Assembly: GCA_903889565.1 (NCBI GenBank)
Contig: CAISYC010000005.1
Location: forward strand, 1-64,000
Direction: 5' to 3'
Length of the DNA stretch: 64,000 nt
From: an uncultured beta proteobacterium
Lineage (GTDB): Bacteria > Pseudomonadota > Gammaproteobacteria > Burkholderiales > SG8-41
Below are positions 11,897 through 47,841 of the stretch, in pieces. The notes below the pieces were generated by a model. It ran no database searches. It was not told the origin of the DNA and saw nothing but the letters and a program-made list of their open reading frames with translations. The number at the start of each line of letters is the position of its first letter. Within the stretch, counting starts at the first letter, position 1. Both the position numbers and the translations under genes were made by a program.

Positions 11897-13081
11897 ATGA
11901 ATTTCCGTCACGCGCAAAACATCGAGGATCTGCGCGCAATCGCGAGGTCGCGCCTGCCGAAGATCGCGCGGGACTTTCTCGACGGCGGCGCCGAAGACAA
12001 TCTGACGCTGGACAACAACCGCGATGTCTTCCGGCGCATCCGCTTCCGGCCGCACACCCTGATCGACGTCTCGAAGCGTTCGGCGAAAACGGAAATTTTC
12101 GGCAAGACCTTCAGCGCGCCCTTCGGCATCGCGCCGACCGGCGCGGCCGGCCTCTATGGTTTCAAGGCCGACACGGCAATGGCGCGCGCGGCGCGCGACG
12201 CGGGGCTACCGTTCATTTTGAGCACCGCCTCGTTCGAACCGCTCGAAGAAGTCGCGCAGGCGGCCAATGGCGGCACGCTGTGGTTCCAACTCTACATGGC
12301 GAAGAACCGGGCGCCGGTGGAAAAACTCGTTACGCGCGCGCTCAATGCGGGATTCGAAGCACTGATCCTCACCAGCGACGTCGCCGCGATGGGCAACCGC
12401 GAAGACAACCGCCGCAACGGTTTTACCACGCCGCTGAAACTCAACATGCGCAATCTGATCGACGGCGCGCTGCATCCGCGCTGGTCGGTCGATGTTTTTC
12501 TGCGCACCCTGCTCGACTCCGGCGTGCCGCGCTATCAAAACGTCAGCCGCGACGGCAATGAACGCATCATCGACAGCAAGGTGGCCGAATTTCAGGAGCG
12601 GCGCGAAGAGGTCAACTGGGAGGATTTCCGCTGGCTGCGCGAATTCTGGCCGCGCAAGCTTTTCATCAAGGGCGTGGTGCGCGGCGACGATGCCGCCAAA
12701 GCGCAGCAGCTCGGCGCCGACGGCGTGTTAATTTCCAACCACGGCGGACGCCAGCTCGACGGCATCATCTCGCCGCTCGAGGCGATCCCCGAAATCCGCG
12801 CTGCCACCGGCGACAATTTCATGGTGATGGCCGACGGCGGTTTCCGCCGCGGTGCCGACATCATCAAGGCGGTCGCCCTCGGCGCCGACATGGCCTTCGT
12901 CGGCCGGCCGCTGCTCTACGGCATCTCCGCCGGCGGCGAAGCCGGGGCAAAACATGCGCTGACAATTCTGCAGTCGGAGATTGACCGCGTGCTCGCACTC
13001 ACCGGCATTTGCTCGATCGACGAACTCGGTCCAGATCTGTTGTGGCATCCGGATTTTGTGCCGGTGCCCGCGCGGCAGTAA
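11897..13081 (+). CDS. FMN-dependent alpha-hydroxy-acid dehydrogenase (LldD-like)
   Basis: This 394-residue TIM-barrel flavoprotein is of the lactate dehydrogenase/glycolate oxidase family, which oxidises L-2-hydroxy acids to 2-oxo acids. Visible motifs are APTGAAGLYGF near residue 80, FQLYMAKNR near 130, and the active-site histidine and arginine in LISNHGGRQLD near 280, followed by the FMN phosphate site ADGGFRRGADI. The length is normal for the family. It would act on a 2-hydroxy acid made or used by the neighbouring aldolase and lyase. Confidence 0.9.
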   Translation: MNFRHAQNIEDLRAIARSRLPKIARDFLDGGAEDNLTLDNNRDVFRRIRFRPHTLIDVSKRSAKTEIFGKTFSAPFGIAPTGAAGLYGFKADTAMARAARDAGLPFILSTASFEPLEEVAQAANGGTLWFQLYMAKNRAPVEKLVTRALNAGFEALILTSDVAAMGNREDNRRNGFTTPLKLNMRNLIDGALHPRWSVDVFLRTLLDSGVPRYQNVSRDGNERIIDSKVAEFQERREEVNWEDFRWLREFWPRKLFIKGVVRGDDAAKAQQLGADGVLISNHGGRQLDGIISPLEAIPEIRAATGDNFMVMADGGFRRGADIIKAVALGADMAFVGRPLLYGISAGGEAGAKHALTILQSEIDRVLALTGICSIDELGPDLLWHPDFVPVPARQ

Positions 13082-13085
13082 TTTC

Positions 13086-13240
13086 GCAGGGCGGATGAGC
13101 GAAGCGTTATCCGCCGGATGCGCTTTTATTGATCACTTATACATACGGCGGAAGGCGCTGCGCTTTTCCGCCCTGCCACTAAACTTAAAATGCACCAACG
13201 CTCGCCGAGATTGTTTGCAGGCGAGGCGCCTGCGCCACAA
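13086..13240. repeat. Palindromic repeats, family B copy 2 and a family A half copy
   Basis: GGGCGGATGAGCGAAGCG...ATCCGCC and then GGCGGAAGGCGCTGCGCTTTTCCGCC (to about 13177) form two adjacent hairpins. A short GCAGGCGAGGCGCCTGC palindrome follows at about 13217-13233. They lie between the convergent dehydrogenase and methyltransferase-fold genes. Confidence 0.6.
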
Positions 13241-13242
13241 AA

Positions 13243-14115
13243 TCAAGGCTTCGCGTCGACCAATACCCTGCCCGCCGCATTGCGCTCGCGCGCATGCGTG
13301 AAGCCGGCCTTCACCGCCTCGCCGAGATCGAAGCGAAAGCCTTTATCTTCTGACAGTTTGCGAGCGCGCGCCGCGAACTGCTCTTCGCTCAATTCAATCT
13401 TTCGCGGCAGCGAGATAAACATCTTGTTGCCGGCACCGGCGACGCCAAGAATGTAGACATCGTCGAACACGTCCTGATAAGTGCGCAGCATCGAATCGTA
13501 GAGCCGGTTGGCGTAGCGGTCCCACACATTGCCGATGACCACGCCGCCGGGGGTCAGGGCGTGGCGCACCGCCTGCAGGAATTCGCGCGTGGTGAGATGC
13601 GCGGGCACTTCGCTCGACGAAAACGCATCGAGAAAAATCACGTCATAGGGTTCGCGCACCGCCTCGATAAATGCGCGGCCGTCGGCGGCATGCGCATGCA
13701 GGGCAGCATCTTCGCGGAAATCGAGAAATTCGCGCGCAACTTCGATGACCTGCGGGTCGATATCGACGGCGTCGATCGCTGCCTCTGGATAATGTTTGCG
13801 CAAAAACATCGGCAACGTGCCGCCGCCGACGCCGATCACCAGCAGGCGGCGCGGATTGTCGGCGAGCGCAAGACCGGCGAACGCCGACTGCGTGTATTTA
13901 AGCACCAGGTAATCGGGGTCGCCCGGTTTGACCACGCTCTGGCGCGGACCGCTGCGGCCGAAGCGCAGCGTGCGCACGCCGTCGTCGCTTTCGGTGACGA
14001 CGATCGAGCCGAACATCGATGGCTGTTCATAGAGCAGGTTGTCCGCGGCGCAAACCGCCGGCGCCGCCAGCCATACCAGCAGAACAATCAGGTGATGCAT
14101 CCGGTTTAATGTCAT
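13243..14115 (-). CDS. Spermidine synthase-like protein with a signal peptide
   Basis: This is 290 residues from ATG 14115 (TGAGG Shine-Dalgarno); ATG 14127 would overlap the upstream Bug stop as ATGA. The core is a Rossmann fold of the spermidine-synthase type: VIGVGGGTLPMFLR (motif I, about 75-90), DAVDIDPQVIEVA (motif II) and DVIFLDAF (about 145). The N-terminus HLIVLLVWLAAPAVCAA looks like a Sec signal peptide, which is odd because SAM and decarboxylated SAM are cytoplasmic. It may instead be a membrane anchor. It is the last gene after two tandem Bug genes. No polyamine role is implied. Confidence 0.75.
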   Translation of the reverse strand: MTLNRMHHLIVLLVWLAAPAVCAADNLLYEQPSMFGSIVVTESDDGVRTLRFGRSGPRQSVVKPGDPDYLVLKYTQSAFAGLALADNPRRLLVIGVGGGTLPMFLRKHYPEAAIDAVDIDPQVIEVAREFLDFREDAALHAHAADGRAFIEAVREPYDVIFLDAFSSSEVPAHLTTREFLQAVRHALTPGGVVIGNVWDRYANRLYDSMLRTYQDVFDDVYILGVAGAGNKMFISLPRKIELSEEQFAARARKLSEDKGFRFDLGEAVKAGFTHARERNAAGRVLVDAKP

Positions 14116-45978: not shown

Positions 45979-46101
45979 AGCCCGATCCTTGTTACACAAC
46001 GGGCGCTATTGTAGCGCGCAGCGCATCGCCCATCGGCGGTTGCCGCTCGCCGCGATTTCGATTAAGTTCGACCGCTCACGCATCGTGAACCGGAGAACCG
46101 C

Positions 46102-47703
46102 ATGTCCGCCACCACCTTCATTTACGATCCTACCGCCCCGGCCGGCGATCTGCCGCAACTCGCGCGCCGCACACTGGCCGGCCTGGCCGGAAAAACGGTC
46201 GGCTTCATCGACAACGCGAAGCCGAATTTCAATTTTCTGGTCGAGGATCTCGGCGCGGAATTTACGACGAATCACGGCGTCAAGGCAGTGATCGTGCGCA
46301 GGAAACGCGGCGCCTCGATTCCGGCTGAAGAAGCGATGATCCGCGAGATCGCCGCCGCCTGCGATGTGGTGATCACCGGCTCCGGCGACTGAGGGGCATG
46401 CACGTCGTGGAGTATCCACGACAACGCAGAAGTCACGAAGCTGGGCCCGCTCGCCGTCACCGTATGTTCGAGCGCCTTCGTCAAGCTGGGCCGCGCCCAG
46501 GCCGCCGCCTGCGGTTATGCGGAGCTGCCGATTGCGGTGGTGCCGCATCCGTTCAGCAACCGCTCGCGCGACGAAGTACGCGCGCTGGCGGCGCAATGCG
46601 CTGCCGATATCGCGCGGCTCGTCAGCCATGCCGATGATGCCGCGTTTGCCGCACCGCGCAGCGCCGCCGCGCGCGCAGCGACCCTTGAAGTTGCCGACGA
46701 TCTCACCGCGATCAATGCGCTGTTCATGGAGAAACGCTGGGGCGACGGACTGCCGCTGATTCCGCCGACACGCGAACGCGTCGCCGGCATGCTGCGCGGC
46801 ACGGTGCGACCGGCGGACGAGGTCATTGCGCGCATCGCGCCGGGCTTCGGCGCGGCCACGGTCGAACGCATCGCGATCAATGCGGTGATGGCGGGCTGCG
46901 AGCCGGCGCACATGCCGGTGCTGATTGCCGCCAGCGGCGCCGTCACCGGCCGCGAATTCAATCTGCAGGGCGTGCAGACCACCACCGATCCGGTCGCTGT
47001 GTGGCTGATCGTCAACGGGCCGGTCGCGCGTGAACTCAACATGAACAGCGGTGCGAACTGTCTCGGTCAGGGTAACCGCGCCAACACCACGCTCGGTCGC
47101 GCGCTGCGGCTGATTCTGCAGAACATCGGCGGCGCGCTGCCCGGTGAGATGGACCGCGCGACCCAGGGCCAGCCGGGCAAGATCGCCTTTTGCTGCGCCG
47201 AAAATGAAGCGGAAAATCCGTGGCAGCCGCTGCATGTCGAGCGCGGCTTCAAACCGGAACAGAGCACGGTGACCGTGGTCGGCGCCGAAGGCACCATGAA
47301 CATGCACAGCTACGGCAAGAACGCCGATGACATCCTGCGCGTGTTCGCCGACACCATGGCGCACGGGCCGTCCAACGAATACGTGCACGGTGGCGAGCCG
47401 TGGATCGTGCTTTCACCGGAACATGCCGAGATTCTGCACGCCGCAGGTTACAACAAGGCCGGCGTGCAGGCAAAGCTGTGGGAGCTGTCGAAAATGAAGG
47501 CCGGCCGCATGACGCCCGAGGATCGCGGCCGCGCGCAGGCCTCGCGCGGCGGCGTGCTCGGCACCATCGGCGAAGAAACGCTGCTGACCATCGCGCACAC
47601 GCCGGCCGACATCGCGATCATCGTCGCCGGCGGCCCCGGCGCGCATACCGTCTACATTCCCTGCTTCGGCAATACGCGTTCAGTCACGCGCGAAATCGCC
47701 TGA
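46102..47703 (+). CDS. UGSC-type selenoprotein, TGA 46390-46392 read as selenocysteine
   Basis: The frame from ATG 46102 (GGAGA Shine-Dalgarno) runs through one in-frame TGA to 47703, giving 533 residues with selenocysteine at residue 97. Coding sequence continues in the same frame after TGA with normal codon use (TSWSIHDNAEVTKLGPLAV...). The site reads GSGD-U-G-A-C, Sec97 and Cys100, a redox-like U-x-x-C. The N-terminal part (about 1-180) resembles the family named for its U-G-S-C motif (recalled, (seleno)protein in NCBI naming). The C-terminal part (about 190-533; RWGDGLPLIPPTRERV, GANCLGQGNRANT) is an unrecognised domain. A hairpin with SECIS geometry follows the TGA. Function is unknown. 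Confidence 0.85.
46399..46428 (+). promoter_or_regulatory. Bacterial SECIS-like hairpin for Sec insertion
   Basis: Immediately after TGA 46390-46392, GTCGTGG (46404-46410) pairs perfectly with CCACGAC (46416-46422) around the loop AGTAT. TGC (46399-46401) pairs with GCA (46426-46428) below an internal loop. The apical loop begins 18 nt after the TGA and has G in its second position, matching the general rule for bacterial SECIS elements. Confidence 0.75.
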
Positions 47704-47841
47704 ACGCGCAGCAAGCTTGACCTGCGTCAAACGCCCGAGCGACGCTGGCGTTAGCATTAATTTGACGCCGGCAAGGCTGCCGCGGCGCAAGGAACGCTGG
47801 ACGGTCCTGTCGTGCGCCATAACGCACGCGAGGAGGCTGTC

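Follow-up and report, generated by a model that had tools for sequence, protein, structure and literature searches.

The window analysed here is a 64,000-nucleotide stretch of contig CAISYC010000005.1, from the genome of an uncultured beta proteobacterium. On its forward strand, which holds all of the window features given with coordinates below, it carries a gene at 46102..47703 that encodes 533 amino acids before a terminal TGA stop codon, and that matches its full-length relatives in containing one in-frame TGA. A likely ribosome-binding site, GGAG (46092..46095), was recognised by reading the sequence 6 nt 5’ of the ATG. Between 46102 and 47703 there is a single reading frame, interrupted by one TGA (46390-46392). 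The initial annotation, made from the sequence alone, had described two ORFs in the same frame (46102-46392 and 46537-47703) joined by this TGA and followed by a hairpin. Re-reading the sequence confirmed both the TGA-joined frame and the hairpin: the stretch between the ORFs is open apart from the TGA and reads GSGD-U-G-A-C, and the read-through product has the 533 residues claimed. The proposal that the locus encodes a selenoprotein is supported by the analyses below, in which the TGA at 46390..46392, residue 97 of the product, is assigned to selenocysteine (Sec) from the TGA/Cys column in homologues.

The family assignment also held. Pfam matched the UGSC domain (PF24696) to residues 7-174, encoded at 46120..46623, with an E value of 6.5e-44 and 150.5 bits against a gathering score of 25; against the NCBIfam equivalog UGSC_fam (NF041046) the protein scored 116 bits, below the cut-off of 125. 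Sec97, encoded by the TGA, and Cys100 together form a UxxC motif. Two features that had been singled out as distinctive are present but less special than was thought. The motif does read U-G-A-C instead of U-G-S-C, but UGAC is a common variant, seen in 18 of 145 relatives. The UGSC domain is indeed fused to a C-terminal partner domain (46678..47700) that belongs to no Pfam or NCBIfam family, but a fusion of UGSC with a domain called “Unknown_1” was already reported in 2008 from Global Ocean Sampling data (PMC2398784). Judged by the description given there, the partner domain is probably Unknown_1. The gene thus belongs to an established family and, going by the 2008 text, to a fusion type already described. 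By itself it would be ordinary to selenoprotein specialists; its genomic setting is not.

Evidence for a selenocysteine codon and its recoding hairpin

Exchange of Sec and Cys between homologues is a classic sign of a selenoprotein. Our searches gave 178 hits, which reduced to 146 distinct rows once repeats were counted a single time; these rows came from fetched loci and were mostly the best matches of the searches, and one was gapped at the Sec column, leaving 145 distinct UGSC domains. TGA occupied the Sec column in 144 of the 145, and the remaining domain had Met. The motif was UGSC in 117 domains, UGAC in 18, UGGC in 6, and UGTS, UGTC, UGNC or MGIC in 1 each, so that 143 of 145 carried UxxC and the exceptions were the one UGTS and the one MGIC. 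In regions fetched later (17 domains, some overlapping the first set), the column held 14 Sec and 3 Cys. The Cys residues were found in L193, from a distant genome, in one of three domains of the G021 region (L202), and in a broken copy in L197. The conserved Sec or Cys that the initial annotation had suggested looking for at position 97 is present in the homologues, and the exchange of the two residues at this column is the signature of a selenoprotein. Because the same TGA is common to many genomes, an error in the sequencing reads at this codon is very unlikely.

Some members of the family depart from the common pattern. The Cys copy in L197 (G465 C6, around 12789-13246) is split across two frames, contains an additional in-frame TGA and is probably a pseudogene. 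Members with UGTS, UGSS or CGTS motifs lack Cys100. A divergent fused paralogue (L133; L134:6134-7747), scoring 28.7 bits, has MGIC, with Met at the Sec position and no in-frame stop; it may be a non-redox member.

The hairpin after the TGA (46404..46422) was assessed by folding, by codon controls and by the pattern of pair changes across relatives. Its 7-bp stem GTCGTGG/CCACGAC (46404-46410 with 46416-46422) and its loop AGTAT (46411-46415), with G at loop position two, are as the initial annotation gave them; a possible eighth A-U pair would leave a GTA loop. The lower TGC/GCA pair that was also noted exists in the window copy, but only 53 of the 130 class-A sequences keep all three of its pairs. 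When the register is moved two bases closer, 104 of the same 130 pair, though the window copy does not. The 51 nt around the TGA folded at -17.3 kcal/mol, compared with an average of -12.4 for shuffled versions (z -1.8), and 9 of 200 shuffles were equally good; taken alone, this single-sequence fold is weak support for a SECIS element.

Comparison across the family was more informative. We prepared controls in which codons were swapped for synonyms drawn from the same pool, and applied them to 143 sequences (the 144 less one with <60 nt after the TGA), which comprise 72 distinct stretches. The mean hairpin score was 10.2, versus 7.0 in the controls, and the minimum free energy lay below a sequence’s own control mean in 134 of the 143. 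In 121 of the 143, the loop began 19 nt past the TGA. Of the 122 Ser codons displayed at the seventh position after Sec, 120 were AGT, a codon that accounted for 11% of Ser codons overall in 57 fused genes, the codon-7 site included; neither of the two intact Cys homologues had AGT at codon 7. The hairpin governs codon choice downstream of the Sec codon.

Base-pair changes agreed with conserved pairing. Hairpin pair 21-27 was never broken: of 137 rows, 96 have G-C and 41 have C-G. Seven of these rows come from the later regions, at least one of the seven being a repeat. Our pair count covered 31 distinct class-A sequences out of 34 and set aside class B, in which the fourth or fifth codon after Sec encodes Pro and the hairpin takes another register. 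Standard pairs filled 94.0% of the pair cells, a figure that would be lower had we kept the three excluded divergent sequences, which form 6, 3 and 3 of 8 pairs. In the same 31 sequences, both partners of the pair had undergone compensatory change in 20 cells; none of 500 shuffles matched either value. The count of further pair types was less clear, with 31 of 500 shuffles doing as well, and slid registers of the hairpin paired only 15-51%. The SECIS element predicted by the initial annotation has its counterpart here in a hairpin just after the UGA that keeps its loop G and covaries across relatives. A search for an Rfam family gave three matches in 46000-47800, all below gathering scores, and none was accepted.

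The genome to which the window belongs (5.04 Mb in 74 contigs, 99.7% complete, 3.9% contamination) has the machinery for Sec insertion. The search for sel genes that the initial annotation had recommended recovered selA (599.5 bits), selB (432.3), selD (423.6) and tRNA-Sec (75.5), all above their cut-offs. The selC-selB-selA cluster (G000 C59:31586-45840) has a UGSC gene some kb off on each side, and selD (L010, G000 C64:1542-2465) is itself a selenoprotein gene with an in-frame TGA and a UGC motif. Across the window’s genome and its relatives, 84 of 199 genomes had a UGSC domain above the cut-off, and selA passed its own cut-off in 76 of these 84 versus 23 of the 115 UGSC-free genomes (Fisher p 1e-24). 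The eight UGSC-bearing genomes with no selA above the cut-off (G002, G012, G026, G034, G050, G065, G068 and G174) run counter to this association; they are 72-97% complete. One of them, G174 (97% complete), holds a TGA-containing UGSC gene with a proper hairpin at C54:181689-182195 (L203). On these comparisons, the product of the window gene is almost certainly a selenoprotein.

The partner domain and the expansion of the family

A profile search placed the partner domain, of ~340 residues, with all 22 UGSC domains of the window’s genome, on the same strand each time: 13 pairs are fused, and in the 9 split pairs the partner has its own gene, which precedes or follows the UGSC gene. Pairing was counted outward from UGSC domains. 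Only the 22 make an unbiased set, having been found with nothing but the UGSC model; loci L051-L111, where the partner accompanied 71 of 73 UGSC domains and the two misses lay close to locus ends, had been fetched with the fused protein. In the later regions the partner lay within 4 kb of 16 of 17 UGSC domains, and the one miss (L199) was at a contig end. This consistent pairing across genomes indicates that UGSC and its partner very likely form an obligate two-part protein.

The last ~347 residues of the window protein gave no Pfam or NCBIfam match at E values up to 10. In sequence searches of the PDB, the best E value was 0.67 for a profile of the full protein and 0.25 for one of the partner domain.

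The genomic setting is a large expansion of one family. The window’s genome has 22 UGSC places, 21 of them with one in-frame TGA. Six other genomes, chosen for their many candidates at first look, have 58, 40, 35, 30, 26 and 21. The count of 58 belongs to G003, of the same genus (98% complete, 2% contamination), where all of the 42 matches listed, out of 58, contain a TGA, one with a TAG too. One 41-kb contig of that genome (C27) carries six UGSC places. Elsewhere the family was sparse: in a phylum-wide sample, with at most 8 candidates scored per genome, only 4 of the other 397 genomes had any UGSC match, with one or two each.

We found no earlier report of this expansion in the literature searched. 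The UGSC row of a 2016 survey table reads ‘26, 33’, which we take as 26 organisms and 33 genes (PMC5029168), and a term search of the deep-Sep paper (PMC12013277) did not return the term UGSC. In the portion available, a 2026 review lists Thermodesulfobacteriota, Synergistota and Clostridia as the richest in selenoprotein genes, and the largest counts it gives there are for the Olavius Delta 1 symbiont, with at least 57 genes, and for a Methylomirabilota MAG, with a predicted 63 (PMC13188914). Three points are new relative to the literature found: how far the family has expanded, its pairing with the partner domain and the link to thioredoxin described below. A genome of a betaproteobacterial lineage holds 58 places of a single selenoprotein family of unknown function. 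Gene callers that take TGA only as a stop split UGSC genes, and current annotations may therefore conceal some of the family.

Thioredoxin-like fusions, predicted structure and neighbouring genes

In two distant genomes an extra N-terminal domain precedes the partner domain (L193:5773-7230 and L196:5553-7139). Both extra domains are thioredoxin-like, with matches below the Pfam and NCBIfam cut-offs. The domain in L193 matched TIGR01068 (E 3.8e-5) and PF00085 (E 6e-4, 20.2 bits), and 47 of its 48 PDB matches up to E 1 are named thioredoxin, the other being a disulphide isomerase. Support for the domain in L196 is weaker: YkuV matched at E 3.5e-4, the remaining matches were no better than E 0.008, and Pfam gave nothing below E 0.04. 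The gene immediately upstream of the L196 pair is selB. These fusions suggest a redox enzyme fed by thioredoxin.

AlphaFold2 modelled the whole protein with pLDDT 90.6 and pTM 0.91, and the partner domain with pLDDT 94.0 and pTM 0.92. The UGSC domain is predicted to adopt an alternating beta/alpha fold with Sec97 directly before a helix at residues 98-113. The Trx-like fold suggested for UGSC in the 2008 text (PMC2398784) is not what this model predicts. Foldseek searches of the PDB gave no match at E <1e-3 for either model. With the whole protein, the best-ranked small-domain matches were lumazine synthase and a flavodiiron core, which we assign to the UGSC domain because they are absent from the best 50 of the partner-domain search. 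The best match of the partner domain was a fumarate hydratase subunit (E 2.3e-3, TM 0.26).

The Bug binding-protein gene that the initial annotation placed beside the UGSC gene is there, but it says little in a genome full of Bug genes. The window itself contains many genes for Bug (TctC) solute-binding proteins, and its genome yielded 445 candidates; scoring was applied to 150 of them, every one of which exceeded the cut-off. Using those 150, 56 of them listed on the 14 contigs with UGSC genes, we found a Bug gene within 500 nt of 5 of the 22 UGSC genes versus 1.3 expected (p 0.006), within 1 kb of 6 versus 2.4 (p 0.03), within 2 kb of 8 versus 4.7 (p 0.06) and within 3 kb of 11 versus 6.6 (p 0.02). 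Among neighbouring genes called with a simple ORF caller, Bugs were 39 of the 101 within 2.5 kb of a UGSC pair versus 26 of the 93 more than 5 kb away, and MmgE/PrpD genes were 6 of 101 versus 3 of 93. We rejected Bug as a specific partner of UGSC, since it is somewhat enriched but too common to serve as a marker. The Bug and MmgE/PrpD neighbourhood fits a catabolic setting without singling out the UGSC genes.

Proposed function and comparison with known systems

We propose that ribosomes translate the UGA at 46390 as selenocysteine with the help of SelB, tRNA-Sec and the hairpin that follows, which would give one protein of 533 residues. Sec97 would attack the substrate, and Cys100 together with a thioredoxin-type protein would return it to the selenol. 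The partner domain may bind the substrate, a guess made where the fold searches gave no confident match, and each paralogue would act on its own small organic acid or a related compound. Sequence comparison shows the recoding signal and the family membership, along with the pairing of the two domains, the expansion of the family and the thioredoxin-like fusions; which way the chemistry runs, what the substrates are and what the partner domain does are our inferences. Taken whole, with read-through, a UGSC-partner pair acting as a thioredoxin-coupled reductase and paralogues divided by substrate, this is the explanation that we judge to be probable, with some reserve. Considered separately, the chances that the pair is a thioredoxin-coupled reductase appear to us evenly balanced, and the assignment of one paralogue to each substrate, suggested by the number of copies, is tentative. 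More speculative still is the wider picture of a lineage of environmental betaproteobacteria that may use Sec as a bulk catalyst, in tens of two-part, thioredoxin-fed reductase paralogues per genome, each with its own substrate.

The thioredoxin-like fusions and the near-universal UxxC motif would equally suit a peroxidase or thiol-disulphide oxidoreductase acting against oxidative stress, the role thought to be that of many UxxC selenoproteins. We consider this unlikely: the predicted UGSC fold is not Trx, a large partner domain stands beside all 22 copies in the window’s genome, tens of paralogues are a better match to substrate diversity than to stress defence, and the members that lack Cys100 indicate that the U-C pair is not always needed. 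Those of these members in which U97 is retained although Cys100 is absent fit a second alternative that we hold to be just as improbable, namely a non-reductive isomerase, lyase or hydrolase whose selenol acts as nucleophile or base and is merely kept reduced by thioredoxin. The MmgE/PrpD genes and the amidohydrolases (3 of 101) near UGSC genes point the same way, as do weak fold matches of the partner domain to the fumarate hydratase subunit and to cyclic amide hydrolases; against this, MmgE/PrpD is also present in the far set, the fold matches reach TM values of only 0.16-0.26, and Sec is rare in non-redox catalysis. That the locus holds two separate genes or a pseudogene, with the TGA a true stop or a sequencing error, would account for the two ORFs and for the modest z of the single-sequence fold, but it is extremely improbable, and we reject both a plain stop and a sequencing error on the strength of the shared TGA column, the Cys homologues, the covarying SECIS and the sel genes.

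The thioredoxin-coupled reductase that we favour invites comparison with glycine reductase, which uses thioredoxin. Membership of the GrdB/PrdB family (PF07355) itself was rejected, with no match in the window protein and 0 matches in its genome. Among 52 aligned UGSC members (the partial second row of L037 and near-identical rows left out), one matched PF07355 at E 0.014; this match alone is at chance level, because the unrelated P22_AR_C scored better, at 0.0094, in the same scan. Profile comparison was more suggestive. Against four Cys-containing GRDB-like proteins, from four of five such loci (L184 left out), the UGSC profile gave P 4.5e-4 and a probability of 33, with Sec97 and Cys100 aligned on both cysteines of CxxC; with a full-length alignment, the values were P 0.055 and a probability of 1. 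Taken singly, the four proteins ranked 1, 2, 7 and 16 of 152, two UGSC pieces set aside. These comparisons make a weak case for a distant relationship between UGSC and GrdB.

In function, the proposed enzyme would share with GrdB/FarB, protein B of the glycine, sarcosine and betaine reductases, and with the D-proline reductase PrdB the UxxC Sec site and the use of thioredoxin known from glycine reductase, and it would differ in its partner domain as well as in the missing PF07355 match. Division by substrate would be another likeness: in the text available on a Synergistota bacterium, the GrdB homologues are described as grouped by substrate, and for one such group the prediction is that Sec attacks a polar C-F bond (PMC10838667). 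If the wider picture of a lineage with Sec as its bulk catalyst is true, GrdB-like chemistry would occur outside amino-acid-fermenting anaerobes, with a partner domain of unsolved fold, and selenoproteomes about equal to the largest reported would arise from one gene family alone.

Nearer to hand, SelD of the same genome resembles the UGSC protein in its TGA-encoded Sec but belongs to another family and makes the selenium donor. Another close system is the UGSC/Unknown_1 fusion, which has the same U-G-x-C Sec motif, the same UGSC domain and the same kind of fusion to a conserved unknown domain. UGSC had been named by 2008, and the partner domain together with the thioredoxin fusions now makes its function testable. 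The 2008 text, as far as it is available, describes neither an expansion within single genomes nor split and fused pairing nor a thioredoxin fusion (PMC2398784), all three of which we found here.
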